Assembly (NCBI GenBank): GCA_036768485.1
Contig: JAVLUZ010000730.1
Span: 204,261-268,260, forward strand
Direction of reading: 5' to 3'
From: Mermis nigrescens
Lineage: Eukaryota > Nematoda > Enoplea > Mermithida > Mermithidae
DNA length: 64,000 nt
Positions 13,612 through 50,299 of the stretch are shown here, one piece after another. The number at the start of each line of letters is the position of its first letter. The first letter of the stretch is position 1. The notes under the pieces are model-generated. The model did no database searches and was not told the origin of the DNA. It saw only the letters and a list, made by a program, of their open reading frames with translations. A program made the translations under genes and the position numbers.

Positions 13612-14121
13612 TCAAGCAAACAACTGACAATAATATGAGCGTGATGTAAACAACTTTTTAGTTTTGAGCCAGTCAGTATAGTACTTTCCAGTGTGAAAAA
13701 CGATTACAGTAACACCATATATTTGGTACTTTAACGCAGGAAACAGTTCAGGTTCGAAAATGCATTTTGGTCTACATTTTTCGTACAGTTTTGGCAAACT
13801 TATTGGAACACACATATCATGATGCGCGACGTAATAAGAAATGGCAAAATTGCACAAAACAGCTTCAAAGTTGCATTCTTTCAAAAGTTCAATTGTCTTT
13901 TCAAGCGCACATTTAGCATCGTTTTCGCTTTTTGTTCCAGTAGATACTAGCTTTCTAGATGCGAAAACAAGCACGGTAGAATGAGGATGTTTGATTTTCA
14001 AGCTCAGGCTAGGAAATTTGCCAGGCTTGTACTTTACAAATTTCGAACAGTGAGCAGCCAGAGTATTGAGATTTAATGCACAGCCACAATTGGCTTGAGC
14101 AATAATATTACAAATTTGCAT
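13612..14121 (-). pseudogene. TATA-binding-protein-like protein (element C)
   Basis: The product has the two-fold TBP core: repeat 1 with FPSLSLKI, TVLVFASRKLVSTGTKSE and a helix region (ECNFEAV); repeat 2 with FEPELFPALKYQ and VIVFHTGKY. These match the canonical TBP patterns FAAVIMRI, TALIFSSGKMVCTGAK, YEPELFPGL and LIFVSGKVVLTGAK. TBP bends TATA DNA and recruits TFIIB and RNA polymerase II. A small insertion near 13678 (GTATAGTAC against GTATGTAC in copy 2) shifts the C-terminal end, replacing the final strand/helix. The N-terminal two-thirds is open. Confidence 0.75.
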
Positions 14122-15079: not shown

Positions 15080-15087
15080 TATAAATA
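15080..15087 (+). promoter_or_regulatory. TATAAATA box upstream of the zinc-ribbon gene
   Basis: TATAAATA 37 bp before the ATG at 15124. The same octamer precedes several other element A genes. Confidence 0.5.
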
Positions 15088-15457: not shown

Positions 15458-15465
15458 TATAAATA
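15458..15465 (+). promoter_or_regulatory. TATAAATA box upstream of 15547
   Basis: TATAAATA directly after the stop of the zinc-ribbon gene, 82 bp before the next ATG. Confidence 0.45.
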
Positions 15466-15870: not shown

Positions 15871-15964
15871 ATATGAATTGAATAAATAAAAAAAGAAAAA
15901 AGCGAGAGGTCATGTCAATGACATGTATAAGTACTGATGATTGGTGCAGAATGCATGCATCAAA

Positions 15965-17028
15965 ATGAATAAGGTGTTAAATAAGTTATATTACGATCCA
16001 AAAACTGGCTACTCTGGCGCCCATCAGCTTTACACCCGAGCCCATAGGTATGACCCCCGCATTCAACTCAAACAGGTACGAGCATGGTTGGCTAAACAGC
16101 CTACATATTTGCTGCACAAACCGCTTTTAAAACACTATAAACGCAATAAAGTTATTGTGAGTGCTATGGATGAGCAGTGGCAGGGGGATTTGGTGGACTT
16201 GCAATCTATGGCTGATCATAATGACGGGTATAAATATTTGTTGAATTGTATAGACATTTTCTCGAAATATGCCTGGTCGGTACCATTAAAGACCAAAAAT
16301 TCAAAAGAGGTACTTGAAGCATTTAAGTCAATTTTACATTCGTCAGGCCGAAAACCGTACAAACTTCAAACGGATGCCGGCAAGGAATTTGTAAACAAGG
16401 AATTTCAACGTTTTCTGAAATCGGAAGATGTGAATTTCTTTACGACGAAAAGCGAAATGAAAGCAAGTGTTGTTGAACGTTTCAATAGAACTTTGAAAGA
16501 AAAAATGTGGCGTTTCTTTACACGTAATAATACATATAGGTATATTGATATCATAGATAAACTCGTGAAAAATTACAATAATTCTGTTCATAGAACTATT
16601 GGTGTGGCTCCATCAAACGTGAATGAAAAAAAGAGCGCGAAATTTTGAATAAAGCGTTTAGAATAGAGCCTCGTGGCGAGCCCGTACAGTTTAAATTTAT
16701 TGTAGGCGACAAAGTGCGAATAAGTAAAGTGAAACGCACGTTCGAAAAAGGATTTTGGCCAAACTGGACTGAAGAATATTTCGTTGTAAAAGAAAGATTT
16801 GCACGCACTCCCCCCGTTTACACGCTAGAAGATCAGATGGGCGAAAAATTGGAGGGTATTTTCTATGAAACTGAAATGCAGAAAATTGATACGTCTGCTA
16901 AAGATGTGTTTATTATTGAGAAAATATTGAAAACGAGAAAGCGGGCAGGAAAGACTGATTATTTAGTGCGGTGGCGTGGTTACCCTCCTAAATTTGATTC
17001 ATGGGTGTCAAACGTTGTAAAGTTATAA
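15965..17028 (+). pseudogene. int: Retroviral-type integrase with chromodomain (element A), one frameshift
   Basis: The start is the ATG at 15965 (MNKVLNKLYYDP, matching B MEKTYYDP). The rve core has the first Asp in DLVDLQ, the second in LQTDAGKEF and the Glu in VVERFNRTLKEKMW, so the DDE triad is present. A frame break falls at the A-run near 16628-16646. The second part continues with VGDKVRISKVKRTFEKGF and ends in a chromodomain (DYLVRWRGYPPKFDSWV). Polinton integrases join the element to host DNA and usually leave a 6-bp duplication. The B copy (27953-28978) is intact and the same length. Confidence 0.9.
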
Positions 17029-17031
17029 ATA
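17024..17031 (+). promoter_or_regulatory. TATAAATA box upstream of minor capsid gene
   Basis: TATAAATA 31 bp before the ATG at 17062, overlapping the integrase stop. Confidence 0.5.
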
Positions 17032-17807: not shown

Positions 17808-18068
17808 ATGTCTATTCAACCTTTTTCTGCACGTCAGCCGTCAGGAATCATGATGATGACTACTGCCGAACCCCAAAAAGCACCAGTTACTGTAAGACGG
17901 TACAGAAAACGAAAGGCAAAAAGACCCCCAAGTGTAGGTGGAGGGAAGAAAAAGTTTATAAATAAGAAAAAGAAACGACAATGTAGAAAGTCTATAAATA
18001 GACAAAGTAGATCTAAAAAATTGCATCATCTATTTGCATTGAGAAATTCTAAATATGTCGAAAAATAA
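17808..18068 (+). CDS. Small highly basic protein, possible core/condensing protein (element A)
   Basis: 86 residues. The middle and C-terminal parts are packed with Arg/Lys (RRYRKRKAKRPP, KKKFINKKKKRQCRKS), with a Gly-rich spacer. It begins 3 bp after the minor capsid stop and overlaps the major capsid start by 14 bp. The composition resembles DNA-condensing core proteins of adenoviruses, which is a functional guess. No B counterpart was seen. Confidence 0.5.
   Translation: MSIQPFSARQPSGIMMMTTAEPQKAPVTVRRYRKRKAKRPPSVGGGKKKFINKKKKRQCRKSINRQSRSKKLHHLFALRNSKYVEK
17993..18000 (+). promoter_or_regulatory. TATAAATA box upstream of major capsid gene
   Basis: TATAAATA 55 bp before the ATG at 18055, inside the basic-protein gene. 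B has TATAAAAGAAC 57 bp before its major capsid ATG. Confidence 0.5.
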
Positions 18069-20925
18069 GGCAGAAATTGTTGAAAAACAGGCCGTTTCTA
18101 TTGTAGCTGAAAATGAAGTTGAGTATTATCCTATAGGTCCATTAATAGCAGAAGAACCGATTCAATTTGATATTCCCGAATTGTGGACACAGCTTACGGA
18201 CCCCAACTTTTTATTAAAAATCCGTGCAAAAGTAGTTAAAGCGGATGGATCAAAATTAGATAAAGCAGCCCGCGTAGCACCCGTTAACTTGACATTGCAT
18301 GCACTTTTTCGCGATATTGTATTAAAAGTGAATAACGTGATAGTTAGTCAAGCAACTAACACGTATCCGTATAGGGCTTATATAGAAACAAATTTCACAT
18401 ACTCCTCAGCTGCTAAAAATGGGGCAGTAGGTATACCACAAATGTTTTACAAGGAGCAAATCGGGTATGTTTAATGCTACTGTAGCAGGAAGTAACCCCG
18501 CATTCGATAAACGCGTAGCCAAATTCGCAGAAAGCAATGTTGTTGAAATGGCGGGACGAATACACTGTGATTTTTTACTGCAATCGAAATTAATTATTCC
18601 GGGTGTGAAATTTTCTTTAACTTTAGTGCCCACTCCTACATCGTTTCATTTGCTTTCAGGGACAGCAACACCTAGTGAAAAAATAATAATTACGAAAATT
18701 ATGCTGAAAGTCAGGCGCATGTATATATCTAGTAGTACAATTTTAGGTATAGAGCATTCCCTACAACAAAAACCTGCATTGTACCCTATCAATCGCGCTA
18801 CAGTAAGGAGTACGCAACTAGCACCTGCTCAAACCCATTTATCTAATTTTGTTTTAAATAGTGGTCAAATACCCCGCTTGATTATTATTACGCTAGTAAG
18901 GTCATCTTCTGTTTTAGGCTCTTATGCAGCAAATCTGTTTTTTGTTGTCAGACTAGGAGCCAGATTTTTTAGGTGCAAAAGATAGATTAGGTGCCAAAAA
19001 AGGTGCAAAAAAATTCATCAATTAGGTGCAAATGTTATCTGAAATTACATGCCAGAGCTCTTTCACTCAGGCAAAAACTTATTAAGTGCACATGTTATTG
19101 GCTCCATCACTTGCAAAAGCCACTTTTACTGAACAAAAACTTATTAAATATGATAATGGTTGTTCATTTTAAGATATTGACAAAATTTATAGGTTTGCAT
19201 GTTGCAGTTGCATAGATTAATTTATACGGTGAAAAAAAAATTGCAACAATGTCTACAGAAATGAGGGGGTGCAAACAGCGTCTTCAACCTTTTGCTCAGG
19301 ATTTGTTTCACTGACAGAAGCTTCAAAGTCTGGCAGTTCTTGCGTAGAATTCTGCAGAAGTTTTCCAAGATTGATCCGTCCAGATATGCCGATGCAGTTG
19401 CAATATGTGCCTGTGGGAGTAGCAGGTGAGGAGGGAGTAATTTTGCTAATGTTAGATCTGAAAAAAAAGTTAGCCTATTAATTCCATTAAAAAAGGTAGG
19501 TACCATAGGCCGATTTTTTGCTGAAAAAGTTTCTTACTATATCCACATTTTAATAAAAGATTACTAGCCTACCACTCTATAAGAGTCTGACCTCCAGTGT
19601 GTGTGAAAATAGCTACTAATAAAAGTGGCAAAGAATCCATGCCTTCAGCAACATTGGTTTTTGATGGCTTTTCTATTTCATTGTCCAACCAGTATGTTCA
19701 AAGCACGTAACACTGTTTGCATCCATTGTTTTGTCCAAAACAAAATACATAGGATTATCGCCTCTCAACCATTTAATCTTCTTAATCGTTTGATTGTAAA
19801 TTGGCAAAACATAATTCTTACACAGGATACGTTCACCTAGGAATTGTGCGGTTGGTATATTTTTCAAGAAAAATTTCTCATAGGCACTGAATTAATTTTA
19901 TACACAGAGAAACACCTGATTGAACAAAAGCTACAGTCAAACCTGCCTCAAATGCACTGGCTAATTTTGTAGAATTTTCAGCTTTTTTGAATCCAGTAGC
20001 CAAAAAAGACTGTGTTGGCCTTTGGTTGGATCTTGAAATCTGCCCAGAATGCTGAGCACTTTGAATATGCCGCTATAACTCGTTGTTTTTGATGTTTTTC
20101 ATCCAATCATCAATAACGATGTCACAAGCATCATATTTTAGGATAGTGCCATCGGTAATAATCTTTTGTGCAGCAAACTATTTGGCTGAGAAGCATTTAA
20201 TTTACTGTTCCGACCTTCAGCATTTTGCCAAAAATAGAATTATGCACCCGCTGCCTCTCGCTCAACAAAGTAAATGTACCATCTACAGTACCTATGCTAA
20301 CTTTGAAATACATGCATAAAAGATGTAACTTGTGAGCTAAATTATTGAGTTTTAGATGCAAAATTGACAAAAGTCGTGAGATTAGGTGCAATTAGGTGCG
20401 CAAGTATTATTTCAGGTGCAATTAGGTGCAACAAACCATTGACTATATGCTTCAAAAACACTGTATTTATGCTTTTCTGGCATTCTCCCATCAAGGCGAG
20501 TCAAAAAAATAAAAGAAGTTGCAGCACCTAAAAATCCGGTCTCTAGTTATCACTAAGAAAATGTATTAGTGCTCAAATACAGGTTAATGGACGTTTGTTT
20601 CCACCCCTGCCCTATATCCCCAACAAATCTCTTATTGATACGTATCTAAACTTGCTAAGAATAGTTCAAAAACTTTACACGGATTCGGACACTGGAATAC
20701 CTTTTGACGATTTTTTACATGAAGGTCACCAGATTCTGCCTTTTGATTTTTGGAAGAAGGGGGTATACCCGCAAAATCTAACGGGGTAATTACGTTTACA
20801 GGGGCAATGGCCTGCAACTGCTTTTGGTTTGATTACTGTACATTGTTTCTTCTACATGTTGTAGGTGGGATAATTCTATAAGTATAGATCACCACAGACA
20901 TGTAATACTCGACTATATACCTTAA
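18055..20925 (+). pseudogene. Major capsid (hexon-like double jelly-roll) gene, split by a hAT transposon
   Basis: The N-terminal part (18055-18474) contains LHALFRDIVLKVNNVIV and YPYRAYIETNF, matching B (AKTLFRQVKLFLNNKLV, YAYRAFLETEL). A frameshift near 18470 leads to 18467-18951 (RIHCDFLLQSKL, LNSGQIPRLIII; B has LHIDLFLQDRFLL, LFSGQLPRRIIF). A transposon then interrupts at about 18952-20545. Homology resumes (GRLFPPLPYIPN) and reaches the C-terminal HRHVILDY just before TAA at 20923-20925, equivalent to B NRNVMYDY. The gene is clearly dead. Confidence 0.8.
18952..20545 (-). mobile_element. Decayed hAT-like transposon inside the major capsid gene
   Basis: About 1.6 kb, bounded by imperfect inverted ends (AGGAGCCAGATTTTTTAGGTGC; right end reversed AGAGACCGGATTTTTAGGTGC). 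Possible 8-bp flanks are GTTGTCAG and GTTATCAC (6 of 8 match). On the minus strand, broken frames include PMYFVLDKTMDANSV (the hAT/DUF659-type FVLDETTDA pattern) and DIVIDDWMKNIKN. All frames are short. Subterminal AGGTGCAA repeats occur at both ends. Removing it rejoins capsid homology. The boundaries are accurate to a few bases. Confidence 0.65.
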
Positions 20926-22174: not shown

Positions 22175-22589
22175 AATCCCGGACCATCCAGCGCTACAAT
22201 AGTTAAGCATATAGCGATGCTTAAGCATATAAGCACGTGCTTAAGCATATAGCAGTGCTTAAGCATATAGCACACGTTTAAACATAGACTCTGCCTATAA
22301 GGTGCTTTGAGCCTTTCATAGGCCCGTACTACACATAACCCTAAAACATATAGCTATACAATGGTTAAGCATATAGCCGTGCTTAAGCATATAGCAGTGC
22401 TTAAGCATATAGCACACGTTTAAACATAGACTCTGCCTATAAGGCGCTTTGAGCCTTTCATAGGCCCGTACTACACATAACCCTAAAACATATAACCCTA
22501 TTAGAGCCGAACGAGAAGGCCAACCTGTGAATCATAAGCACAAAACGCCACACTAGAGGGACAACCCAGTAAACTTTTACTTCAAAGCG
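22175..22589 (+). repeat. Element B left terminal inverted repeat
   Basis: It starts AATCCCGGACCATCCAGCGC. It contains tandem TTAAGCATATAGC-type units in two blocks separated by a conserved spacer (CTCTGCCTATAAGG, CATAGGCCCGTACTACACAT), and ends at ACTTCAAAGCG. The reverse complement at 37165-37576 matches over the full length with small differences. A terminal repeat of about 0.4 kb and a total of 15.4 kb fit a Polinton. Confidence 0.95.
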
Positions 22590-22927: not shown

Positions 22928-25900
22928 ATGAGTGACGGAGTTGCAAATGCAAGATATGTGGTATGAAACGGACAAAGAAATGCGGGAGGAGTGGGAGGAC
23001 AGTTTGGACGTTGTGGACGAATGGTACCCGCCAGAGGAATTTTACGAGTTGGGGAGCCAGAAATGCAGAAAATAAAACAATTCAACATGGAAGGACGAGC
23101 ATATACGTTGAACTTTAAAAACTTGGATCGCCTCGACTTGGAAAAAAACTTGGCCGAAATTTTCAACAGCGCAATCACACAGATTATGGATAGGACGAGT
23201 ACTAATGATATGGTGGGCCTGCAAATTACGCATCCGACACTAAAAAGCTGGCGATTGTTCCATTCCAAAAGGCGAACAGATAAAAGGCAAGCAAATTGTA
23301 CATACAATTGAGCAAATTTTACAGTCAAACGAGCGAAGTGCACCTTGAACAGCCGAAACGCAGATAAAAATAGTGCAGGTTAGTCCATCAACTGGTTCAG
23401 GCTATCATAAACAAAGATGTATTAATTTAGAAAAGAAATGAAGGCAAAACAATGCTTTGTTAAAATTAAGAACAATGATAATTTATGTTTGCCAAGAGCA
23501 TTAGTAGTAGCAAAAGCGCATGCTCTACATATGGAAAAGCCTGACGATAAAACTCTAAAAGCAGAATATAAACATATGTGCAGAGGTGACGCATATCAAT
23601 ACACGATGCAGCAAACTAATGCAAAGGATTTAATGGATCTTGCAGGCCTGAGAGATCATATAGGCCCTTGCGGTATACCGGAGCTGCAGGCATTGCAGGC
23701 TGCAATGCCAGGTTTTCAAATTAAAGTCTTTAGCGCCAATTTCTGTAACGCCATAGTTTTTGAGGGGCCGCTTGCAGAAAAAATTGTAAATTTGTATCAT
23801 AATAATAATCATTTTGACGTTATTGGAAGTATGGCCACTTTCATGAATTGTGGGTATTTTTGTGATGCATGTAACAAGGGATACAATAACAAAAACGAGC
23901 ACCGCTGCTCCAGAGTCTGTCCCTGCTGTCATGGACCTGTATGCCCAAACATTGCTTTGATAGAATGCAGGGATTGTGGCCAACTCTTTAGAGGCCAATG
24001 ATGTTTTGACCATCATAATAAGCTCGGGGAAAACAATTTATCAATATGCCAACAAATGAAATGATGCGATAAATGCGGTCAGCATATTAGCAGACTTGAC
24101 AAAATTAAGCGGCACAGATGCAACCTTTATTACTGCAAGATTTGTAAAACGGATGTGCCTAAAGACGATCATAAGTGTTACATGAAACCGCTAGAAATTG
24201 AAAAGGATGAAAAGAAAAACACAAAGTACGTGTTTTTCGATTTTGAAACGCGCCAGGAAAAAATCTGTGGCAATACCAATGTTGGAATCCGATTAGAGCA
24301 TGAGCCAAATTTATGCATTGCTCATGTAGTGTGCATGAAATGCAAGGATGGACCACTCGGACTTTGCAAACATTGCGGCGAGAATCGCCAAATATTTTTT
24401 GGAAAAAATTGCAAGAATGAATTTTTCAATTATTTATTTGGCCTAGAAAATACAACAGCCATTGCACATAATGCAAAAGGCTTTGATGGCCATTTCATTC
24501 TGAAATATCTTTTCAAACAGGCCATAGTACCCACAATAGTCACCCGTGGGCTGGAAATTATGAGCTTAACAGCAGGCTCTGTAAAATTAATCAATTCCTT
24601 CAAATTTCTTGCCAATGGCTTTGTCAGCTTTGCCAAAAACATTCAACGAACCGGAACTAAAAAAAAGTTATTTTCCGCACCTTTTTAACACGGCCAAAAA
24701 CGAAAATTACATGGGTGAGTGGCCGGATGCCTGGTACTACTCTCCAGCTACAATGAACCCCATGAGCCGAGAAAACTTTTACAAATGGCATCAAGAGCAA
24801 AAAGGCAAAATGTTTGATTTTAGGACCAAACTTTTGACCTACTGCGAGTCGGATGTCGATATACTCCGCCGGTGCTGCCTAAAATTTCAAAAATTATTTT
24901 TGGCTGAAACTGGCTTAGACCCCTCTGAAACATCATTAACAATCGCAAGCGCTTGTAACAAAGTTTTCAGAACAACTTATTTGCGCGCAAATACAATAGG
25001 CATTGTACCGCACGGTGGCTACAGACGAGCGGAAAAACAATCAATCAAGGCAATCAAGTGGCTGAAATGGCTGAGCAAAACGCAAAAAATTAATATAAGG
25101 CATGCTCGCAATATGGGCAAGCAAAAAATATGCAATTATTGTGTAGACGGCGTTTACAAAAATATTGTGTACGAATTTAATGGAAGCTTTTGGCATGGCT
25201 GTCCAAAATGCATGAAAAAGCGAACAAAACTTACAGCAGACCAAATAACAACGGCTGAAGAGGCGTACCAGAACACAATTAAACGACGCAAAGCAATAGA
25301 AGCACAAGGGTACACTGTGACTGAAATGTGGGAGTGCGAGCTGAATCGAGAGCTGAAATCAAATTTCGAAATGAAATAATTTTTCAACTCAATCAAAATC
25401 GTGGACCCATTAGATCCCAGGGAGGCATTTTATGGTGGAAGAACAAATGCCATAAAATTACTCGAAAAGATCAAACTGGATCAAAGCGGAGCTCCCATGG
25501 AAAAAATCAGTTACACGGACATATGCAGCTTGTACCCTACGGTCAACAAATATGGCATTTACCCTATTGGGCATCCTCAAATTTTAACGGAAAACTTTTT
25601 AGAAATGTCAGCTGAAAAACGACCATACGAGGGACTAATTAAGGCCAAAATTTTACCACCCAGAGGCCTATACCATCCAGTATTGCCATACAGATTTGGC
25701 GATAAATTATATTTCCCCTTATGCCGAACATGCACTGAAACGCATCAACAGGATTGATGTGAGCACACTGACGAAGAACGTGCAATAGTGGGCGCCTGGG
25801 TAAGCATCGAGATCTACAAAGCCCTTGAACTCGGCTACAAAATTTTAGAAATTTATGAAGTATGGCATTATGAAAAATCCGAAAAGTATGACCCTGTTAC

Positions 25901-26834
25901 AAACCCTGATGGGGGTCTATTTACGGAGTACATCAACAAATTCATGAAATCTAAAGCAGGAATCGGATGGATGGCCTTCTTGGGTGAAAACGGATGATGA
26001 CAAAACAAAATATATAGCGGAATACAAACAACATGAGGGAATAGAACTTGATGCGGCCAAGATCTCAAAAAATCTGGGGATGCGCGCACTCTCTAAGCTA
26101 ATGCTTAATTCTTTTTGGGGAAAATTCGGTCAAAGGAACAACATGACCAAAGTTTCATTTTTCACCGATCCGGCCCCATATTTTGATCTAATTTTTGACC
26201 CAACAAACATTATTTACTCGATAAACGCCATCAATGAAAATCTGATGGCCGTTACACATGCAAAAGAGGATGATTTTGCTGAAGTTATGGGAAATACGAA
26301 CCCAGTCATAGCCGCTTACACAAGAGCTCAGGCGCGCTTAAGGCTTTATGAACATCTGGAAAAATTAGGCAATCGAGTACTTTACTTCGATACAGACAGC
26401 GTGATTTTTAAATTGACGCTGAATAAAGATGAGTATGAAGTGCCTATTGGATCATACTTGGGCAATATGACTGACGAACTGAAGGATTACGGCCCTGGCG
26501 CTTACATAGAAACATTCGTGAGCGGAGGGCCTAAAAATTATGCTTACAAAGTCTACTCGGCTCGGGAAAACAAATTTTACTATCATATAAAAGTGAGAGG
26601 ATTCACCTTGAACTCGGCTGACTGGCGTCAAGAATCAATTTTTGTTCATTACTAAAAATGGTCAAAATTTTTGTACAGGAAAACAATATCATTGAAAAAA
26701 CTGTATATTTTCCACAAATTCGGCAATTACCCGACCATACTATAGTGACAGAAGATGCATCTAAAAAGTATAAAATTGTTTATAATAAACGGGTTGTAAA
26801 GCCCGATTATTCAACAATGCCCTATGGTTTTTAA
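22928..26834 (+). pseudogene. polB: Protein-primed family-B DNA polymerase (element B), intronless and broken
   Basis: Order of parts: acidic N-terminus; conserved N-terminal domain (HPTLKSWRLF); OTU-like domain (23438-23830; Cys in NDNLCLPRAL, His in NNHFDVI); Cys/His zinc region (YFCDACNKGY, then C..C knuckles to 24170); exonuclease motifs FFDFETRQ, HNAKGFDGHF, YCESDVDIL; polymerase motifs YTDICSLYP (A), KLMLNSFWGKFGQRN (B), YFDTDSV (C); C-terminus MPYGF then TAA. Breaks: in-frame stops at 23999, 24062, 25377 and 25755; frame changes near 22950, 23060-23075, 23300-23440, 24605, 25970 and 26625. All catalytic residues still read as consensus, so inactivation looks recent. It has none of the introns seen in element C. 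Confidence 0.9.
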
Positions 26835-27921: not shown

Positions 27922-27952
27922 AGGCAAAAACGCGTTATATTTTTATTGAATT

Positions 27953-28978
27953 ATGGAAAAAACTTATTACGATCCTCAAACAGGGTACACGGGGGTCGAA
28001 CCTCTAAGAAAACGTGTGAAATTGCCTAAAAAGGAAGTCATAAATTGGCTAGAAACTCAGCCAGCCTACACTTTACATAAACCGGCAAGAAGAAAATATG
28101 TGCGCAATAAAGTTATAGTTTCAAGGATCGATGAACAATGGGCTATCGATTTAGTCGATTTGCAGTCGCTGAAAAAGCATAATGACAGCTATGTTTTTCT
28201 CTTAAACTGTATTGACGTGTTTAGCAAGTACGCATGGAGTATACCCGTAAAAAATAAAAGCGCTGCATCGATTCTCAACGCTTTCAAACTTATTTTAGAA
28301 AAAGGTCGAAAACCAGAAAAAGTGCAAAGTGACGCCGGCACAGAATTTTTAAATAAACATTTTCAAGCCTTTCTGAAAGAAAATCATATCGATTTCTTCA
28401 CAACAAACAGTGAGCTTAAAGCATGCATAGTCGAGCGTTTTAACCGCACTTTGAAAGAACGTATGTGGCGCTATTTCACGAAAAATAACACTTACAGATA
28501 TATTGATATTTTAGACGATTTGCTTAATGGTTATAATAATACAAAACATCGCACAATAGGGATCGAACCGGCCAACGTTAATATTAACAACGAGTCTCAA
28601 ATTTTACAGAAAGCATTCAAAATTGACAATAAAAACGTAATTTTTAAATTTAATGTAGGAGATAAAGTTCGCATAAGTAAGGTTAAGAGAACTTTTGAGA
28701 AGGGCTACGAGCCCAATTGGAGTGAAGAAACGTTTGTAATAGATAAAAAACTTAAACGCAATCCCCCCGTTTACACACTAAAGGACCAGATGGGTGAGAA
28801 ATTAGAAGGCGTATTCTACGAACCAGAACTTCAAAAAGTTAATATTATCGATGAAGTTTACGTAGTAGAAAAAGTTTTAAACACTCGCAAAAAAGGAAGA
28901 AAAACGGAATATTTAGTTAAATGGCGCGGTTTTCCTGAAAAATTTAATAGTTGGGTTAGCCAACTAATCAAATTATGA
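27953..28978 (+). CDS. int: Retroviral-type integrase with chromodomain (element B), intact
   Basis: 341 residues. Short N-terminal module (YYDPQTGYTG); rve core with Asp in IDLVDLQ, Asp in QSDAGTEF and Glu in IVERFNRTLKERMW; SH3-like part (VGDKVRISKVKRTFEKG); C-terminal chromodomain (YLVKWRGFPEKFNSWV). All DDE residues are present and there are no stops. Polinton integrase acts on element ends and host DNA in the nucleus; the chromodomain may steer integration to histone-marked chromatin. The length matches the A copy once its frameshift is discounted. Confidence 0.95.
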   Translation: MEKTYYDPQTGYTGVEPLRKRVKLPKKEVINWLETQPAYTLHKPARRKYVRNKVIVSRIDEQWAIDLVDLQSLKKHNDSYVFLLNCIDVFSKYAWSIPVKNKSAASILNAFKLILEKGRKPEKVQSDAGTEFLNKHFQAFLKENHIDFFTTNSELKACIVERFNRTLKERMWRYFTKNNTYRYIDILDDLLNGYNNTKHRTIGIEPANVNINNESQILQKAFKIDNKNVIFKFNVGDKVRISKVKRTFEKGYEPNWSEETFVIDKKLKRNPPVYTLKDQMGEKLEGVFYEPELQKVNIIDEVYVVEKVLNTRKKGRKTEYLVKWRGFPEKFNSWVSQLIKL

Positions 28979-29049: not shown

Positions 29050-29058
29050 TATAAAAGG
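29050..29058 (+). promoter_or_regulatory. TATAAAAGG promoter with conserved leader (zinc-ribbon gene, B)
   Basis: TATAAAAGG 59 bp before the ATG at 29117. The following leader (AAAAATCATCATT then TTAAA) and the bases before the ATG (GGTCGAAAA) are repeated at 29439-29504 before the next gene. Confidence 0.6.
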
Positions 29059-29438: not shown

Positions 29439-29447
29439 TATAAAAGG
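29439..29447 (+). promoter_or_regulatory. TATAAAAGG promoter with conserved leader (29505 gene)
   Basis: TATAAAAGG 58 bp before the ATG at 29505; same leader as at 29050. Confidence 0.6.
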
Positions 29448-30030: not shown

Positions 30031-30076
30031 GCTTCATCTATATTAGAAAAACGCACAATTCTCACACATAATAAAA

Positions 30077-30688
30077 ATGGATCTCCGTTTCAAGCACCCC
30101 TTCACATGCATTGTGGCCGGCCCAACAAAGGCTGGAAAATCAACTTTTGTAAAACAGCTTATAAAAAACGCAAATAATTTTATTCACCCACCTCCGAAAT
30201 TTATATGGTGGTTTTTCGCAGAAGATCAGAGTTTGCATAAAGAGATGGAAACTAGCGTAATTTTCATGAAAGGACCCCCTGATTTAAGTCTAGTTAGGCA
30301 ACATAGCAGTGAACCACAATTAATTATAATAGACGATCTTATGCAAGAAGCAAAAAACGATGTATTATTTACACGAGGTTGTCATCATTGGGATATTTCT
30401 GTAATAAACATCGTTCAAAACATATTTTTTAAAGGTTTAAGAACATGTCGCATAAACACGGAATATTTAGTTTTAATGAAGAATCCGTCTGATCGGCTCC
30501 AGGTACAAACACTAGCCCGTCAGCTTTACCCTCATAATCCTAAGTTTTTTCTGGAAGCCTTTAATGATGCTACAAACGAAGCGTTTTCTTACCTTTTGGT
30601 CGACTTGACACAATCTACACCTGAAAATTTACGTCTCCGCGCTAAAATTTTTTCGAAAAATCCTGTTGTTTACACCGAAAAAGTATAA
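30077..30688 (+). CDS. DNA-packaging ATPase, FtsK/HerA (A32)-like (element B), intact
   Basis: 203 residues. Walker A GPTKAGKSTF at residues 14-23; an aromatic stretch FIWWFFAEDQ; Walker B LIIIDDLM near residue 90; a sensor/arginine region around VQNIFFKGLRTCRIN and LVLMKNP. The length is normal for Polinton packaging ATPases, which pump DNA into the capsid. Followed by the pX-like gene as in A, where the ATPase is destroyed. Confidence 0.9.
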   Translation: MDLRFKHPFTCIVAGPTKAGKSTFVKQLIKNANNFIHPPPKFIWWFFAEDQSLHKEMETSVIFMKGPPDLSLVRQHSSEPQLIIIDDLMQEAKNDVLFTRGCHHWDISVINIVQNIFFKGLRTCRINTEYLVLMKNPSDRLQVQTLARQLYPHNPKFFLEAFNDATNEAFSYLLVDLTQSTPENLRLRAKIFSKNPVVYTEKV

Positions 30689-30694
30689 AAGAAC
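30684..30694 (+). promoter_or_regulatory. TATAAAAGAAC box (pX-like gene)
   Basis: TATAAAAGAAC overlaps the ATPase stop and lies 31 bp before the ATG at 30725. The same undecamer precedes the major capsid gene (32145). Confidence 0.6.
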
Positions 30695-30724
30695 TTAATC
30701 ATATTTTAGGGTTTAAGTTAAAAA

Positions 30725-31066: not shown

Positions 31067-31160
31067 TGATTCATACAAACAAAATGATTCTAGTCCCCCA
31101 CGAGCTTGCTCGGGGGAAAATGAAAGCACTACTAAGTACGTGTCAAATCTAGATCGTGAA

Positions 31161-31733
31161 ATGATGAACATTTTAAACGATAATTCTTTACCTATGGATG
31201 CTAAAATTTTACAATATAATCAAATTTTGCATAGGTATCAAACAGCTAAGCAGGAACTTGAAAAGCCGTTACAGCTCGAAATTAAAGAAGAGAAAGTAGA
31301 AAAACCTTCAGATATAGTTACGCAAGAAAAGAAAGAAGAACCTATAAAGAAAGATGTCGTAGAAGAAGCAGTTTTTAGCACAGTGCCCCAAAAATGGCAG
31401 AAACAAGCCTCTTTATTACTTAAATATGCGCGGAAAAGCCCACACATAAAATGGGCGGACAAAGGAGAAATGATTATTGATGGTAATAAAATTGCAGGAT
31501 CGAACATTGTTGATTTAGTTTCCGATTTTTCACGTATTCGAAAATCTGAACCGCCTATCGGCGCTGAAATTTTTCTCCAAAAATTAATCGATGAAAATAT
31601 TCCAAAAGAATCTATTGTGAATAAAAGGCGATTGAATTTATTGCAAAAACAAGTTTATGTATCGCCATCTCAGTCATTTTCTACGCCATCGTCAGAAGAG
31701 AAAAAGCCACTGAAATACTGGATAAATCTATAA
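31161..31733 (+). CDS. Conserved Polinton virion-type protein (element B)
   Basis: About 190 residues. The natural start seems to be at 31140, but that codon is GTG, so translation may begin at the ATG at 31161. The N-terminal half is helical and charged (QEKKEEPIKK). The C-terminal half has a compact domain (PHIKWADKGEMIIDGNKI, SNIVDLVSDF, NIPKESI). A has a broken relative at 37745-38159, also directly after the pX-like gene. A CCCC..GGGG hairpin lies at 31095-31117. Role unknown, probably virion or regulatory. Confidence 0.55.
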   Translation: MMNILNDNSLPMDAKILQYNQILHRYQTAKQELEKPLQLEIKEEKVEKPSDIVTQEKKEEPIKKDVVEEAVFSTVPQKWQKQASLLLKYARKSPHIKWADKGEMIIDGNKIAGSNIVDLVSDFSRIRKSEPPIGAEIFLQKLIDENIPKESIVNKRRLNLLQKQVYVSPSQSFSTPSSEEKKPLKYWINL

Positions 31734-31740
31734 AAGAAAC
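31729..31740 (+). promoter_or_regulatory. TATAAAAGAAAC box (31781 gene)
   Basis: TATAAAAGAAAC overlapping the preceding stop codon, 41 bp before the ATG at 31781. Confidence 0.55.
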
Positions 31741-31780
31741 GTAAATCATAATTAAACACTAAAAAAGAATTTTACAAAAA

Positions 31781-32202
31781 ATGAGACAACAATTCAATCC
31801 AGATAATTATAACGCTTGGTTAGACTACTATACCGACCAGGCTTCCCAGGTCGGATACGGTATGGTGGGGTTCAAGGGAATGGCGTACCAAAGGGGGCTG
31901 GACTTGGTAGCTTTTTCCGTTCTCTTTTCCGGATGGCTATACCCATTTTTAAATCAGCAGCATCTAGTGTGGGAAAACAAGCTCTATCTACGGGTGCACA
32001 TATTGCCGCAGATGTGCTCGACGGCCGTAATATTGTTCAATCACTACAGGCTCATGGGAAAGAAGGCGCAGCTAATTTGCTAAACCAAGTTAGTGACAAA
32101 TTACAACGGCAAACGGGGCGAGGTTTAGGCACCCGACCCAAGCCTATAAAAGAACTTAGTGTTGACGTATTTTCAACTCAAAAACGAAGTAAAAAGAAAT
32201 AA
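31781..32202 (+). pseudogene. Gly-rich virion-type protein with one frameshift (element B)
   Basis: The start reads NAWLDYYTDQ and GFKGMAYQRG, and then the frame moves by one at a G-run near 31890; the other frame continues GLGSFFRSLF, AIPIFKSAASSVGKQ, a Gln-rich helix and a basic end (KRSKKK). The Y(Q/K)RG - GLGSFFR - K(S)GA..VGKE order is common in Polintons. The stop codon overlaps the major capsid ATG (TAATG). The defect is one base in a homopolymer, so it could also be a sequencing error. Confidence 0.55.
32145..32155 (+). promoter_or_regulatory. TATAAAAGAAC box (major capsid gene, B)
   Basis: TATAAAAGAAC 57 bp before the ATG at 32202. Confidence 0.6.
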
Positions 32203-33503
32203 TGTCTTTAATCGATTCATTTTCAGTCGCTAGTACAAAAAGCGAACTTGATTTTTTCACTGTTCCGCCTACCCAGGTAGCCATAAAACGCGGGTATTGG
32301 GATGAGATTAACTTAACAAATCCTGTAACAGATGAGGGTCCGTACGAATTTCACATTCCTCCCGACCCTCATTTTTTGCAACTAAATAAAAATTACATTT
32401 ACATGCAAATTTCTATATCTAAAGGAACGCCTCAGGCTGATGGCACAGCGCCAGATGTAGGCCCTATCAATCTGATAGCCAAAACTCTATTTCGTCAAGT
32501 GAAACTTTTTTTAAATAATAAGCTCGTACATGACAGCGGAGATAAATATGCATACCGAGCATTTTTAGAGACTGAACTGAATTATGGGTGGGATGCTAAA
32601 AATTCGCACTTGCAATCTGCTTTGTACATTGTAGATAGTCCGGGTTATAATGACACAGAAAACAATTATGGATTGAGAAAACGCATAGAATTTTTTGCGG
32701 ATAAGACTATAGTTGAATTAAGTGCGCCACTACACATTGATTTATTTTTACAAGACAGGTTTTTACTAAATTATACTGACGTCAGGCTTGAATTAAACAG
32801 AAATCCTGACGCGTTTGTTTTGCAAAGTTTTAAGGGTGCTGAAAATGCGCATTTAAGTATTCAACAAATGAAGTTTTGCGTACGAAAGGCAGAAATTTTA
32901 GAAAGTACCGGACTAGCTATCGAAAGAGTACTTGCATCAAACACTATCAAATACCCCGTGCGCAGAGTTACGATGATGAATATACATATACCTAGCACTT
33001 GTCAATCTACTCCCCTTAACACATTATTTTCAGGCCAGCTTCCTAGACGCATTATTTTTGGATGCGTGGATGCAGATGCGTATAGGGGAAATATAAAGAA
33101 ATCTCCTTTCAATTTTAAATCATACAGCATAAATGATGCAAAAGTAATTTGTGGGGGCGTTACCTTCCCCTCCCACCCATTCAGGCTAGACTTTAAAAAT
33201 AACAAGTACCTTAGAGCTTTTGATCAATTATTCGAAACACTTGATATTAGTCGGGACAATAAAGGGAACGGGGTGACAAGAGAAGGGTTCAAAAACGGTC
33301 AGTGTCTGTTTGCATTTGATTTGACTCCAGACGAAGATGACGGCGGACATTGGGATTTAATTAGGGAAGGTACAACTAGCATTGAAATATCATTTTCCGA
33401 AAAAATTCCCGATACGGGCCTTGAAGTGATTGTTTATGCCGAGTTTGATAATTTAGTAATGTTAGATAAGAACAGAAATGTTATGTATGATTATAATGCT
33501 TAA
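32202..33503 (+). CDS. Major capsid protein, hexon-like double jelly-roll (element B), intact
   Basis: 433 residues without breaks. Conserved parts include an N-terminal PPTQVAIKRGYWDEI, AKTLFRQVKLFLNNKLV, YAYRAFLETELNYG, LSAPLHIDLFLQDRFLL, SGQLPRRIIFG and a C-terminal VIVYAEFDNLVMLDKNRNV. This is the widely annotated Polinton capsid family. The A relative is split by a transposon. It is followed 3 bp later by the protease. Expected to form the icosahedral shell. Confidence 0.85.
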   Translation: MSLIDSFSVASTKSELDFFTVPPTQVAIKRGYWDEINLTNPVTDEGPYEFHIPPDPHFLQLNKNYIYMQISISKGTPQADGTAPDVGPINLIAKTLFRQVKLFLNNKLVHDSGDKYAYRAFLETELNYGWDAKNSHLQSALYIVDSPGYNDTENNYGLRKRIEFFADKTIVELSAPLHIDLFLQDRFLLNYTDVRLELNRNPDAFVLQSFKGAENAHLSIQQMKFCVRKAEILESTGLAIERVLASNTIKYPVRRVTMMNIHIPSTCQSTPLNTLFSGQLPRRIIFGCVDADAYRGNIKKSPFNFKSYSINDAKVICGGVTFPSHPFRLDFKNNKYLRAFDQLFETLDISRDNKGNGVTREGFKNGQCLFAFDLTPDEDDGGHWDLIREGTTSIEISFSEKIPDTGLEVIVYAEFDNLVMLDKNRNVMYDYNA

Positions 33504-33505
33504 AA

Positions 33506-34015
33506 ATGAATACCTTCCAACTTTCAAACGTTTTAAAGGGCGACCAAGCGGTCGGTCAAAATTTTCTTGGTGTTTACCCGAGCGATAAATTACCACCCAT
33601 TTTTAGCAAACCTGCTGCATTGGTAATGAATATGGACCCTAGTACCCAACCTGGGTCGCATTGGACTTGCATGTATTTTGACGCGCATGACTCATGCGAC
33701 TATTTCGACAGCTACGGCTTAGCGCCTGATAACCAAACACAAAATTATATTCTACAGTATGCTACAAAAATTAAGCATAATAAAAAATGTGTGCAGCAGC
33801 CACTAACGTCTACGTGCGGCCAAATGTGTGTTTATTTTTTAATTTGGAGGTGCAGAGGGGTGCCCATGAAACTAATTCTAAAAAGTTTAGAAAAAAGTTA
33901 TGCGGACGAATTTGTAACGGGTTTTGTAAATAGTCTATTTAAGATAAACACCTCAGTCATAGATGAAGATTTTATCATAAACCAAATTTGTCAAAAATGG
34001 ATCAATTTTACATAA
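33506..34015 (+). CDS. Adenain-like cysteine protease (element B), intact
   Basis: 169 residues. Catalytic His in PGSHWTCMYFD, acid in DYFDSYG, and Cys in TSTCGQMCVYF, in the C5/Ulp-like order His-Asp-Cys. Adenain-type enzymes trim precapsid proteins at Gly-Gly/Ala motifs. The 3' end overlaps the minor capsid start by 19 bp. Confidence 0.88.
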   Translation: MNTFQLSNVLKGDQAVGQNFLGVYPSDKLPPIFSKPAALVMNMDPSTQPGSHWTCMYFDAHDSCDYFDSYGLAPDNQTQNYILQYATKIKHNKKCVQQPLTSTCGQMCVYFLIWRCRGVPMKLILKSLEKSYADEFVTGFVNSLFKINTSVIDEDFIINQICQKWINFT

Positions 34016-34735
34016 CTTTGCCCAGCAACACGATAAGCGATAGGCAGAATACGCCTTCAAAGTTTATTGTACATTTACCGCAAAAATTAAAACTAATCGG
34101 TGATTGGGAGTGTGGTCTCTCGGAATTTATTTACCCCCATAATTGGCAAACAATAAGAAAACACGAAACGGAAATTAAAATTATAAGTGCAGATGGTATT
34201 GAATATAAACTTCAAATGCAGGAAGGATGCTACGACTCCATCCAGGAATTTATAGAGGCTATGAAATTTTGTATAGAAAAAGTAGAAGGAGTAGAATTCA
34301 ATTATTACACTTCAATAAAACGCGTTTCTGTAATGATACTCGAATCGCTTTGTGAAATCAGTGAAACTGTCCGAAAGAATAGCACATATTTTAGGATTTA
34401 AAGAAACAGTACTAAAAGATACAGGATGGTCGGATAGGGAGCCGGACTTGGTGGGGGGTGGTCTTGAAACCATGTACGTCTATGCCAACATTTTAGAACC
34501 CCAGATCGTAGGCGATATTTCAGCCCCTCTTTTGCGCATCATAAACGTGGAAGGAACATACCCCAACATCATTGACAGAATCTATGATTTTCCCCACTAC
34601 ATACCCGTCCTCGTAAAAGATATTTCTAGCATAGAAATAAACATAAAAGACGATTTGGATCTATTTATACCGTTTATTTCCGGAAAAGTGATTGTCAAGT
34701 TGCATTTTCGAAAGATTAAACCTTCATATTTTTAG
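33997..34735 (+). pseudogene. Minor capsid (penton-like) protein with one frameshift (element B)
   Basis: Starts at the ATG at 33997 (DQFYITLPSNT). Strands LKLIGDWECGLSEFIYP and IKRVSVMIL follow, then the frame changes near 34350-34375 and continues SERIAHILGF to VIVKLHFRKIKPS. It aligns along its length with 17062-17805 of element A. Only this gene and the 31781 gene break the otherwise open morphogenesis block of B. Confidence 0.6.
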
Positions 34736-34741
34736 ATATAA

Positions 34742-35282
34742 ATGGTCGTGTTTATTAAAATTTCATCATTCTCAATCATGATTACGATTCGAAATGTTGT
34801 TTCTACAGCTCGAGTCTCTTCAAAGCTTTTAAATTTGTATAAAATAAAGAGAAGTTGTGAGGGTGTGGAATTTGATCATAAAAAGTTCAACGCTGCAGTA
34901 ATTCGAATAACAGAGCCAAAATGCACAGGCCTGTTGTTTAGTAGCGGCAAACTTGTTTGCATCGGTGCTAAAGGCGTTGAACAAAACAAAATTGCGAACG
35001 AAAAAATTTGTGAAATGTTAAAGCAAAGCGGATACGAGCTAAAACTAACTGAACACAAAATTCACAATATAGTCGGATCGGGAAATTTAGGTTCGATGAT
35101 TAATTTACGGAATTTAGCTCAAAATTACAAAAAATTTGTTGAATACGAACAAGAATTATTCCCCGGTTTAAAACTACGATTTCCGGATGGTCCCGCCCTC
35201 TGATCTTATTTTTACAACTGGAAAAATTGTTATAACAGGGGGAGAAACGAAGCGCAGCTCAAACGTTTTCATAAACGGGTAA
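34742..35282 (+). pseudogene. TATA-binding-protein-like protein (element B)
   Basis: Possible starts are ATGs at 34742 and 34778. Repeat 1: FDHKKFNAAVIRITEPK, LLFSSGKLVCIGAKG, a helix with KICEMLKQSGY. Repeat 2: EHKIHNIVGSGNLG, INLRNLAQNYKKF, YEQELFPGLKLRF, then after a one-base frame change near 35200 LIFTTGKIVITGGE and a short basic end at TAA 35280-35282. All TBP hallmark segments are present in order (the F..VI.RI, SGK.VC.GAK, NIVGS, EPELFPGL and TGK..ITG classes). It is closer to consensus than the A and C copies. Only the last about 25 residues are out of frame. Confidence 0.85.
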
Positions 35283-35534
35283 TTTGCTTGATAGATGCAT
35301 TCAAAATACATCCATAAAAGACAATGTGAATGTTTATTCAAGAATATATAACTCGACCGACTGCAAGCCTCGTATGATGCATGTACTGTATTCAGTTTTG
35401 ACAGAGCCAATAAACCTAATAGGGAATGAATCAATAAAAAAGACGGCAGGAGTAGCGCATTAGAACCCATGCATTTACGTTTTAAGGGTCAGATAATAGA
35501 ATTTGAATTTGTCAATTTTTGTGGGGTTCATTAC

Positions 35535-35804
35535 CACACCTGGGCGTGGGGGGGGGGGGTTTGGGGGGGTATGCACCCCCAGAAATCACCCCCCCCCCCA
35601 GAAATCAAAATACCCCCCCCCAGAATTCAATTTTTGAAAATTTTTTTCGTTTTTTTCGCAATTTTTTGATGCCAATGGATAGTGCTTGATGAGAAACGTC
35701 GAAAAATGGTGTTTTTATCGCCATACCACCATTTTTAAGGCCATTTTTCGACCTTCAAAAAAAATCTTGCACCCCCCAGAATTTTCTTGCTGCCCACGAT
35801 CATG
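35535..35804 (-). mobile_element. hAT-type MITE copy 4 (inside element B)
   Basis: Exact 8-bp duplication TTCATTAC (35527-35534, 35805-35812). Same ends as the other copies; long C/G runs. Confidence 0.93.
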
Positions 35805-36037
35805 TTCATTACCAATAATGGGCCTTAATTTAGCTTAGCTGAAATCAGCTTTGCATCATGTGAGGCTATTCGTACACATGATAAATTTCATGTGAATTTA
35901 AATTTTAAACATTATTTTATTACCCTCCAGGAAGTGCGTCTGTACCCACTTAGGCTTAGCGGTTTGCTTCAGCTTAAGTGTGAACAAATTTACCCCCTGA
36001 GGGTAAAACAGACTGCGAAATATTCTTCAAATTCGAT

Positions 36038-36964
36038 TCAATGCGAGAACCCCAGGAAATACGCATTAAAACAAATTGTGCAAGATGCATGGCGCAATAT
36101 TAACATATTTATGGCGTGTCTTAGGCAAACGCGCAAACGTGATGTATAATCCACCTCATTCCAATTAGTAAAATTGAAGCGTAGGTAACAAAGGCAGAGG
36201 GCATTGGCGAATACCCCCGCCAAAAAACCAATGGCATTGGGTGGAATTATGCAATTGCTCAGCACAATTTTTGTTGGGCTAATGTTCCTGACTAGATCCA
36301 CAAAGTCGTAATTAACGATGCAATCGTAGGCCGTGAATTGCTCAACTTTGTATCGATTGCGAACCATCCACAATAATTTGTCGATAAGAACGCTATCATA
36401 TTGCAAATTTTTGTTGGGGTTGTTCTCATACTGTTCCATAATAAGCGGCCCCCATTCTGCGTTAAAAGCGCAATCCTGAATATATTATGTGAATGATGCA
36501 ATTTGGTTGAAAAAGGGAGTGTAATGAGATTGGAAAAGTATAATAAAAAGATTAAAAAAATATGTAGGTAGTTTAAGGAATGCTTATGGGAAAACTTGAA
36601 ATTCCGAGGATTGGCTTGATATAACAATTCTTGGACTGTCTCTTTGATGTCCATTGTTGTTTGACCTCAAAGTTGTTTAGCGTACACAACGACATCAATC
36701 AAAGGCCCATGATTAATGGGCCAGCAATTGATGTCATTGTTGGGGTTTCTCGGTCGGAAACCCACGCTATAATCAGTCGTTTTGGCGGCTGCGCCAGCGT
36801 ACCCCCAAATATACCGTCATTTTATTATCAACAGGCGCAGGGGTAGAATTTGCTACTTTTTTCCACTCAGACAATAGCTGGGACGTACGAATTTTAGACC
36901 TATAGTCTAGATTCAGAAAAATTGAACGTTTGATATTGCGAGGTAATCCGCTAAGTGAGAGCAT
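36038..36964 (-). pseudogene. F-box/LRR-like protein (element B), one intron
   Basis: From the ATG at 36964: LSLSGLPRNIKRSIFLNLD and SQLLSEWKKVAN form a recognisable F-box. A frame break near 36775 leads into PRNPNNDI and IDVVVY, as in 12510-12289. A likely intron (about 36475-36604; acceptor ATATTCAG) is followed by a 36474-36038 exon of LRR-like strands (PTKIVLSNCIIPP, CLCYLRFNF). It points toward the TBP gene from the right TIR. F-box proteins connect substrates to the SCF ubiquitin ligase, so a viral copy may redirect host proteolysis. Confidence 0.55.
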
Positions 36965-37164
36965 GGTTGTAAATGGAAAAATGATGATATGAAAAAAGAT
37001 AGGGCGAAACTAGATTTTATAATAGCAAAAATAGACGTGATTGCAAAGATATGACAAATGATTTTGCTTTGAATAACATGTTTTGCCCTACAAGAACTTA
37101 GCTAGACGCCCGTCTGATGTCGCCCACAGTGCAGCTCAAAATAGTTTCAAGAGCAATAGGTTAT

Positions 37165-37576
37165 CGCTTTGAAGTAAAAGTTTAGTGGGTTGTCCCTCTA
37201 CTGTAGCGTTTTGTGCTTATGATTCACAGGTTGGCCTTTTCGTTCGGCTCTATAGGGCTATTTGTTTTAGGGTTATGTGTAGTACAGGCCTATGAAAGGC
37301 TCAAAGCGCCTTATAGGCAGAGTCTATCTTTAAACGTGTGCTATATGCTTAAGCACTGCAATATGCTTAAGCACGGCTATATGCTTAAGCATTGTATAGC
37401 TATATGTTTTAGGGGTATGTGTAGTACGGGCCTATGAAAGGCTCGAAGCGCCTTATAGGCAGAGTCTATGTTTAAACGTGTGCTATATGCTTAAGCACTG
37501 CTATATGCTTAAGCACAGCTATTTGCTTAAGCACGGCTATATGCTTAACCATTGTAGCGCTGGATGGTCCGGGATT
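37165..37576 (-). repeat. Element B right terminal inverted repeat
   Basis: Reverse complement of 22175-22589, with the same tandem TATGCTTAAGCA units and the terminal CGCTGGATGGTCCGGGATT. The 200 bp between the F-box gene and this TIR holds nothing recognisable. Confidence 0.95.
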
Positions 37577-37583: not shown

Positions 37584-37736
37584 AAGTTTTTGTCAAAAGT
37601 ACGAAACAAGTTTGTACTTGTTAGCATTGCCTGAAACTCGTAAAACGGATAAACAAAAAGTTCTGGAAACGGAATCTGCAGGAATTTATTTCTAATTTAT
37701 TTTTGGCTCTTCAAGAAGCATTGAAAAAATAAAATG
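37584..37736 (+). repeat. Second copy of the pX-like 3' end flanking element B
   Basis: About 150 bp match 22018-22170 (TTTTTGTCAAAAGTAC to GCATTGAAAAAAT) at roughly 94 percent by eye. This is far longer than the 6-bp duplication expected for a Polinton. It starts 8 bp after the right TIR. Confidence 0.85.
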
Positions 37737-38217: not shown

Positions 38218-38225
38218 TATAAATA
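38218..38225 (+). promoter_or_regulatory. TATAAATA box of the element A TBP gene
   Basis: CCTATAAATACAAG, 28 bp before the ATG at 38253: ideal core-promoter spacing if transcription starts near the ATG. Confidence 0.55.
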
Positions 38226-38252: not shown

Positions 38253-38784
38253 ATGGAGATTTGTAATCTCATTGCAAGTATGTGATGTACTTGCTTTCTC
38301 AATTTGACCATTATTGCATCAACCTATGCTGACAGGATCAAATATCAGCCGGGTCGTTTTCTAGGTCTAAGCCTGAAATTTGAAAATCCAAAAGCGACAC
38401 TGCTTGCGTTCAAATCTGGCAAATTGGTGTGCACAGGGACTAAAGACAAAGATGCAGCTCGCGAAACTTTTAAAAAATGCAGTGTCTCCTGAAAATAATT
38501 TATCCGAAAAGTTAAAATTCAAAACATATGTGGTTCACAATTACATCGGATCAAATAAATGCGGCCATTGTGTAGATTTGAGAAATATTTATGAGAAATG
38601 TTGTCCTAAATGCTTATATGAACCCGAACTGTTTCCTGCTTTGAAATTATTGTTAAATAATTGTGTCACTGTTATCATTTTTACTTCGGGTAAATTTTTT
38701 GTGACCGGATCAAAATATTGCAGTGATGTGTTTTGTGCTGACAAAATTGTTCAGAATATTTTGAGTTCGTGTAAACTTGATTGA
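38253..38784 (+). pseudogene. TATA-binding-protein-like protein (element A)
   Basis: Starts MEICNLIAS like the C copy (MQICNIIAQ), then a TGA and a frame change near 38285. Repeat 1: RFLGLSLKFENPK, LLAFKSGKLVCTGTKDKD. A second frame change near 38470 leads to NYIGSNKCG, LRNIYEKC, YEPELFPALKL and VIIFTSGKFFVTGSKY. All TBP segments can be seen in order. It is followed 22 bp later by the Hsp20-like gene. Confidence 0.8.
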
Positions 38785-38806
38785 TTCAAAAATAAATTTT
38801 TAGATC

Positions 38807-49759: not shown

Positions 49760-50299
49760 CTAAAACATTTACTAAGTTTTTACAACAATCAAGCAAACAG
49801 CTGACAATAATATGAGCGTGATGTAAACAACTTTTTAGTTTTGAGCCAGTCAGTATGTACTTTCCAGTGTGAAAAACGATTACAGTAACACCATATATTT
49901 GGTACTTTAACGCAGGAAACAGTTCAGGTTCGAAAATGCATTTAGGTCTACATTTTTTGTACAGTTTTGGCAAACTTATTGGAAAACACATATCATGATG
50001 CGCGACGTAATTAGAAATGGCGAAATTGCGCAAAACAGCTTCAAAGTTGCATTCTTTCAAAAGTTCAATTGTCTTTTCAAGCGCGCATTTAGCATCGTTT
50101 TCGCTTTTTGTTCCAGTAGATACTAGCTTTCCTAGATGCGAAAACAAGCACGGTAGAATGAGGATGTTTGATTTTCAAGCTCAGGCTAGGAAATTTGCCA
50201 GGCTTGTACTTTACGAATTTCGAACAGTGAGCAGCCAGAGTATTGAGATTTAAATGCACAGCCACAATTGGCTTGAGCAATAATATCACAAATTTGCAT
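49760..50299 (-). pseudogene. TBP-like protein, copy 2
   Basis: As 13612-14121, but here the C-terminal repeat is in frame through VIVFHTGKYILTGSK, while extra bases near 50130 and 50252 shift the N-terminal part. Each copy thus carries a different break. Confidence 0.75.

Follow-up and report, generated by a model that had tools for sequence, protein, structure and literature searches.

The window analysed here, a stretch of 64,000 nucleotides from the nematode Mermis nigrescens (contig JAVLUZ010000730.1, positions 204,261 to 268,260 of the forward strand), contains four genes of the TATA-binding protein (TBP) family, which lie in two elements, A and B, and in the duplicated stretches C and D (Table 1). 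Element A extends from 22175 to 37576 and is bounded by inverted repeats of 415 nt with 94.9% identity. Judged by these repeats and by genes predicted to encode a type-B polymerase, a retroviral-type integrase and an adenovirus-type protease, element A is a Polinton. Its other polymerase pieces match polymerase stretches of C and D. We take the capsid genes of element A to be such from their place and from the known Polinton gene set, without a profile: the candidate major capsid protein gave no sequence match in Pfam, PHROGs or the PDB, the candidate minor capsid gene gave none in Pfam, and relatives of the latter adjoin protease and capsid genes in other loci of the genome.

The ends of element A showed no target-site duplication in the range of 5-8 nt. 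The two flanks (22020-22168 and 37587-37736) have 150 bp of one gene in common (94.7% identical), and because of this overlap of about 150 bp the junction has probably been rearranged. Element A appears to be inserted into element B, which extends from about 14.8 to 39 kb and has its TBP gene at 38253, downstream of another gene. In both duplicated stretches, C and D, TBP is encoded on the minus strand. Two minus-strand ORFs, 11691-12215 in stretch C and 36041-36484 in element A, are 26% identical to each other and had no convincing Pfam match.

Table 1. Predicted genes, repeats and TATA boxes in the window, in window coordinates.
Feature	Position	Strand	Evidence or remark
Left terminal inverted repeat, element A	22175..22589	+	415 nt, 94.9% identity to reverse of 37165-37576
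Right terminal inverted repeat, element A	37165..37576	-	match to 22175..22589
Protein-primed-type DNA polymerase B, element A, several frames	23426..26652	+	PF03175 1.2e-6 on 25948-26652, above cut-off
Integrase with chromodomain, element A	27950..28975	+	PF00665 2e-11, PF00385 5.9e-10
Candidate packaging ATPase, element A	30047..30685	+	Adeno_IVa2 4.8e-4, Pox_A32 0.0017, both below cut-offs
Candidate major capsid protein, element A, 436 aa	32193..33500	+	place and known Polinton gene set
Adenovirus-type protease, element A	33497..34012	+	PF00770 3.8e-6, above cut-off
Candidate minor capsid gene, element A, two frames	33967..34732	+	place and known Polinton gene set
TBP gene, element A	34742..35282	+	PF00352; frame broken in second repeat
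TATAAAAG before ORF 29102	29050..29057	+	
TATAAAAG before ORF 29496	29439..29446	+	
TATAAAAG before ORF 30722	30684..30691	+	
TATAAAAG before ORF 31813	31729..31736	+	same place in A-type relatives
TATAAAAG before candidate capsid gene of A	32145..32152	+	inside preceding frame
Integrase, element B, two frames	15941..17025	+	60-62% identity to integrase of A
Candidate capsid protein pieces, element B	18043..18982	+	28-34% identity to candidate capsid protein of A
TBP gene, element B	38253..38784	+	PF00352 on two pieces; early stop and frame change
TATAAATA before ORF 15115	15080..15087	+	
TATAAATA before ORF 15502	15458..15465	+	
TATAAATA before ORF 17035 (candidate minor capsid of B)	17024..17031	+	
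TATAAATA before candidate capsid gene of B	17993..18000	+	
TATAAATA before TBP gene of element B	38218..38225	+	
TBP gene, stretch C	13612..14121	-	PF00352 and model; frame open, C-terminus out of register
TBP gene, stretch D, duplicate of C	49760..50299	-	PF00352 on 49701-50174; in pieces

The initial annotation had assigned all four genes to the TBP family, and a profile search with the ORFs of the window agrees with this assignment. PF00352 matched 34742-35200 on the plus strand (E 3.9e-32, two repeats), 13612-14121 on the minus strand (E 8.3e-31, two repeats), 49701-50174 on the minus strand (E 3.6e-19), and both 38286-38489 and 38377-38781 on the plus strand (E 7.8e-15 and 2.2e-13). Every piece passed the curated cut-off except the 33-aa tail of the first gene (35181-35282, in another frame), which reached 18.7 bits (E 0.0015) and thus stayed below the cut-off of 22.9. 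The best PDB sequence matches were eukaryotic TBPs, from yeast for the 13612 copy (5.2e-29) and from Arabidopsis for the 34742 copy (4.7e-30). All four window copies are damaged. For example, the 34742 frame terminates at 35203, within the second repeat, and the last 25 or so residues of 13612-14121 are out of register in the alignment with the sister copy. The first ATG of the 34742 frame is at 34742 itself; the ATG at 34778 is the likely start of the gene, because open relatives (e.g., L033) begin at the equivalent ATG. As had been proposed, the four genes represent three types, with 13612 and 49760 belonging to one duplicated stretch (blocks 93-98% identical), and the types have diverged strongly, the 34742 and 13612 types sharing 32% identity over 134 columns. 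A position next to the minor capsid gene had also been suggested. It was found for the 34742 type, the frame of which lies directly 3' of the stop codon (34733-34735) that closes the candidate minor capsid gene, but not for the other types.

The expected saddle fold was recovered by structure prediction. Modelled from an alignment with 30 other sequences, the 13612 copy is predicted to be a TBP saddle (mean pLDDT 92.4, pTM 0.81). Its best PDB fold match is the TATA-box complex of yeast TBP (1ytb; TM 0.85, rmsd 2.3); because the input alignment contained cellular TBPs, the model does not count as evidence independent of them. Six open copies from other loci matched PF00352 with values of 1.4e-41 to 3.4e-50. 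Conserved residues were compared in 15 Polinton TBP representatives, using yeast numbers. F99, F116 and F190 are kept in all 15 and F207 in 14, with Y in the remaining one; these we take to be the DNA-kinking phenylalanines. The presumed TFIIB-contact glutamates E186 and E188 are invariant in all 15. At what we assume to be DNA-face residues, T124 is replaced by V, I or L in 11/15 and N159 by L or M in 6/15, and the positions of K133, K138 and K145 are variable. Threonine or serine at position 203 was considered as a Polinton signature, as it is present in 15/15 representatives, and was rejected, as it also occurs in 13/117 other listed TBPs. The dN/dS values (NG86) were 0.07-0.42 in ten of 14 pairs, the value of 0.07 going with a dS of 3.5; dS was saturated in the remaining four; by these sequence estimates, Polinton TBP is under purifying selection.

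TBP is carried by several divergent Polinton lineages in differing gene orders. A TBP search of the genome assembly (524 Mb, 860 contigs) gave 2552 first-pass candidates, and all 150 that were scored were above the family cut-off, many of them open frames of 172 to 188 aa with identical scores. The gene context was read in 10 kb around each of 20 matches, and a core Polinton gene (polymerase, integrase, ATPase, capsid, protease or minor capsid) was present within this distance in 18 of the 20 loci. In L009 and L011 it consists of integrase fragments of 25-46 aa only; L010 has only a gene like ORF 15115 nearby, and L022 only neighbours known from stretch C. The TBP gene follows the minor capsid gene in L019 and L026, and it follows a 37733-like gene in L025, as in element B. 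In L017, L020 and L021 it is located between the integrase and ATPase genes but on the other strand; it precedes a 15115-like gene, the integrase and the capsid genes on one strand in L016 and L018, and adjoins polymerase and a 15502-like gene in L012 and L023. In L013 and L015 it is found after or before a 15115-like gene with the polymerase nearby, and in L014 and L027 the same arrangement has capsid-block genes nearby.

That TBP is a regular Polinton gene in this genome is supported by capsid-anchored sampling. The candidate capsid protein was used as query, and 28 loci were chosen among the 97 matches listed. TBP was present at the predicted place in 18/18 A-type matches (73-100% identity), in 10/18 as one open frame, and it was present upstream on the other strand, as predicted, in 9/10 matches of about 60-62% identity, in 7/10 as one open frame. 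Overall, TBP was at the predicted place in 27/28 loci, the miss being L058; for L046, the sampled stretch covers the gene only in part. One locus, L050, also occurs in the TBP list; among the 27 loci independent of that list, TBP was present in 26.

Several other ORFs were noted. A short ORF that contains two CxxC pairs (15115-15450 and 29102-29386 in the window), which had no Pfam match above cut-off, is present in 14 of the 20 loci and adjoins TBP in several lineages. A small ORF 3' of TBP in types B, C and D (13185-13520, minus strand; 38804-39102, plus strand; 5549-5884 in L022; 5520-5618 in L025) had no database match. An Hsp20-like reading of the TBP-side ORFs 13185-13520 and 38804-38983 and the visual assignment of ORF 58636-59115 as PC4-like were rejected for want of database support. 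The non-histone ORF 39835-40269 (minus strand, 145 aa, no Pfam match) is followed about 40 nt past its stop by a histone 3' UTR stem-loop (RF00032, 36.4 bits, 39748-39793, minus strand). In the TBP-bearing locus L012, an ORF with 29% identity to it likewise has such a stem-loop behind it (4289-4333, minus strand, 34.2 bits), the only one found in 13 loci scanned. ORF 39835-40269 thus resembles a gene that is carried by a Polinton and has a 3' end of the histone type.

The host TBP gene is located on contig C73 and comprises at least two exons. An alignment-based protein search gave 3136 matches, 120 of which were listed; of two single-sequence protein searches, one gave no match and the other a single match, and no relatives were found among the viral contigs scanned. 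A 45-row tree was built from 15 of the 39 full-length frames from loci and 29 of the 120 database TBPs listed. In it, the host TBP pairs with the Ditylenchus TBP (95/96, starred) inside a eukaryote TBP group (97/86, starred), which does not include the Polinton copies; this placement points to a nematode-like host. Because the host TBP groups apart from the Polinton TBPs, these genes are not recent host copies. Of the two outcomes that would have spoken against the initial annotation, lack of a TBP profile match and grouping with the host TBP, neither was observed. Retro-copies of the host TBP that recently landed in Polintons might explain that the TBP core is intronless in the elements while the host gene is split, but the identity of the 15 representatives to the host TBP is only 30-42%, they are separate in the tree, and the gene has the same position across many copies of one element type, so we give this explanation practically no chance.

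Clustering of the Polinton copies together had been named as support for an old viral gene. The copies form three separate starred clusters (100/100, 99/97 and 96/91), the last of which includes the database protein P0014 (from a contig of 2138 bases); yet a tree that forces the 15 representatives and P0014 into a single clade is 5 log units worse, and the AU test does not reject it (p-AU 0.345). Nor was a single clade rejected (p 0.25 and 0.32) in an earlier tree with long branches, which contained the damaged window copies and 50 of the 120 listed database TBPs. A single origin of the Polinton TBPs is therefore possible on the basis of these alignments. The short TBPs P0002 and P0033, whose JGI contigs measure 1589 and 8614 bases, form a 57% identical pair and were not placed with the eukaryote TBPs in the 45-row tree.

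TATA boxes were first spotted in upstream sequences of element genes and then tested on the window with the TATA-box consensus. TATAAAWR is present 20 to 90 nt upstream of 9/22 predicted starts of elements A and B, versus 1.3 for random plus-strand positions; none of 20000 draws reached 9, and the reverse orientation gave 1. In the wider stretch from -130 to -20 the count was also 9/22, versus 2.0 expected. The box before ORF 31813 is outside this count, which took that frame to start at its first ATG. Eighty starts from the 20 other loci remained of 110 after removal of near-duplicates. TATAWAWR precedes 34 of them, compared to 4.1 for random positions (maximum 13 in 2000 draws) and 14 for the reverse-complement control, and it is absent at 46. 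The box TATAAATA precedes 25/80, versus 2.1 expected (0 of 2000 draws) and 4/80 for the reverse complement. Most of the boxes listed for these loci are 25 to 51 nt upstream of the ATG. The true share of TATA-bearing starts may be higher, because many of the 80 are first ATGs of broken frames.

The elements differ in the box they contain. Element A has six TATAAAAG on the plus strand and none on the minus strand, and TATAAATA occurs there only on the minus strand (two copies). Element B has ten TATAAATA on the plus strand, one on the minus strand, and no TATAAAAG. Box counts are near expectation in both C and D and also from 50.5 kb onwards. Six more A-type loci contain 14 TATAAAAG and one TATAAATA on the plus strand and neither on the minus strand; two non-A starts carry TATAAAAG. 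These counts suggest a box preference by lineage, TATAAAAG in the A type and TATAAATA in the others, which represents one contrast between related groups. Residue 124 was considered as setter of this preference and rejected, as V, I or L is found there in A-type and other lineages alike. The conservation of the box before the candidate capsid gene of element A may stem from the protein, because the box overlaps the preceding reading frame. In L017, L020 and L028, which belong to one lineage, TATA boxes also precede the polymerase, integrase and TBP genes, and therefore a role restricted to late genes is not supported.

Assembly of the RNA polymerase II complex at TATA boxes starts from TBP. 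Because a selected TBP sits in elements whose own genes bear TATA boxes, we consider it likely that TBP is a regular Polinton gene in this genome and serves as an element-encoded promoter-recognition factor that works with the host RNA polymerase II. The Polinton TBP would bind the TATA boxes of the element and recruit host TFIIB and RNA polymerase II, and the element would thereby start its own genes independently of host TFIID. The damage in all four window copies, the partly varying DNA face, the 46/80 starts without a box and the counts of 14/80 and 4/80 for the reverse complement speak against this reading, and so does the fact that the same TATA boxes could be open to the host TBP. That the host TBP alone serves the boxes, with another or a marginal role for the element TBP, is in line with canonical TATA boxes being host TBP targets and with the absence of TBP from the predicted place in L058. 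However, the gene is kept in 27 of the 28 sampled loci, it is under purifying selection, and the DNA and TFIIB contacts are retained, so this alternative seems unlikely.

Even less probable is a decoy that sequesters host TFIIB or other factors and thereby disturbs host transcription. The invariant TFIIB-contact glutamates and the variable K133, K138 and K145 would fit a decoy, but the retained DNA-kinking phenylalanines and the TATA boxes of the elements' own genes would not. TBP also bends DNA strongly, and the A-type gene comes after the candidate virion-gene block, as might be expected of an architectural protein for replication or packaging rather than transcription. Such a protein would need neither invariant TFIIB contacts nor TATA boxes before genes, which makes this role very improbable.

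An extension of the promoter-recognition reading is that each lineage has a private promoter system, in which its own TBP is matched to its own TATA variant and protein and boxes have co-diverged. We put this forward tentatively, as a possibility with somewhat less in its favour than against it; if true, the transcription of co-resident elements would be kept apart mutually and from that of the host.

To our knowledge, transcription initiation in Polintons has been little studied. As the elements carry TBP and many of their genes follow TATA boxes, Polintons may operate their own promoter system, and an element of about 15 kb with lineage-differing TATA boxes and a general transcription factor that is retained across divergent lineages makes the start of Polinton transcription directly testable. 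Element A shares terminal inverted repeats, type-B polymerase, retroviral-type integrase and adenovirus-type protease with known Polintons/Mavericks, while its TBP sets it apart from the Polinton gene set described in the literature searched. The earlier statement that TBP is not a described Polinton gene still stands: no description was found in the open-licence papers searched, and the words "TATA" and "TBP" are absent from the main text of three Polinton papers (PMC8097293, PMC4642659, PMC10120064).

TBPs are known from large dsDNA viruses, according to two papers (PMC11410667, PMC5825884). African swine fever virus B263R and the TBPs of mimivirus relatives are likewise virus-encoded proteins with the TBP fold, and the BFVD fold matches of P0014 include large-DNA-virus TBPs. 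In contrast to Polintons, these viruses have large genomes, and African swine fever virus has its own RNA polymerase, as stated in PMC10881513, whereas the examined parts of the element showed no RNA polymerase gene. Further papers report TBP in 59% of mirusvirus genomes (PMC10132985) and sporadically in green-alga elements of putative mirusvirus origin (PMC10675990). In mirusviruses TBP is thus also a common gene; unlike Polintons, mirusviruses are large viruses with another capsid fold. Polintons are a further place to look when the origin of giant-virus and mirusvirus TBPs is traced. The working mode proposed here is comparable to that of the TATT-box protein of beta- and gammaherpesviruses (EBV BcRF1, ORF24), which, according to PMC4893493, binds viral promoters with a box of its own and uses the host RNA polymerase II for late genes. 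However, BcRF1/ORF24 is a distant TBP relative that acts in a multi-protein complex, whereas the Polinton protein is a clear TBP, and, unlike the herpesvirus late-gene boxes, the Polinton boxes in one lineage also precede the polymerase and integrase genes.
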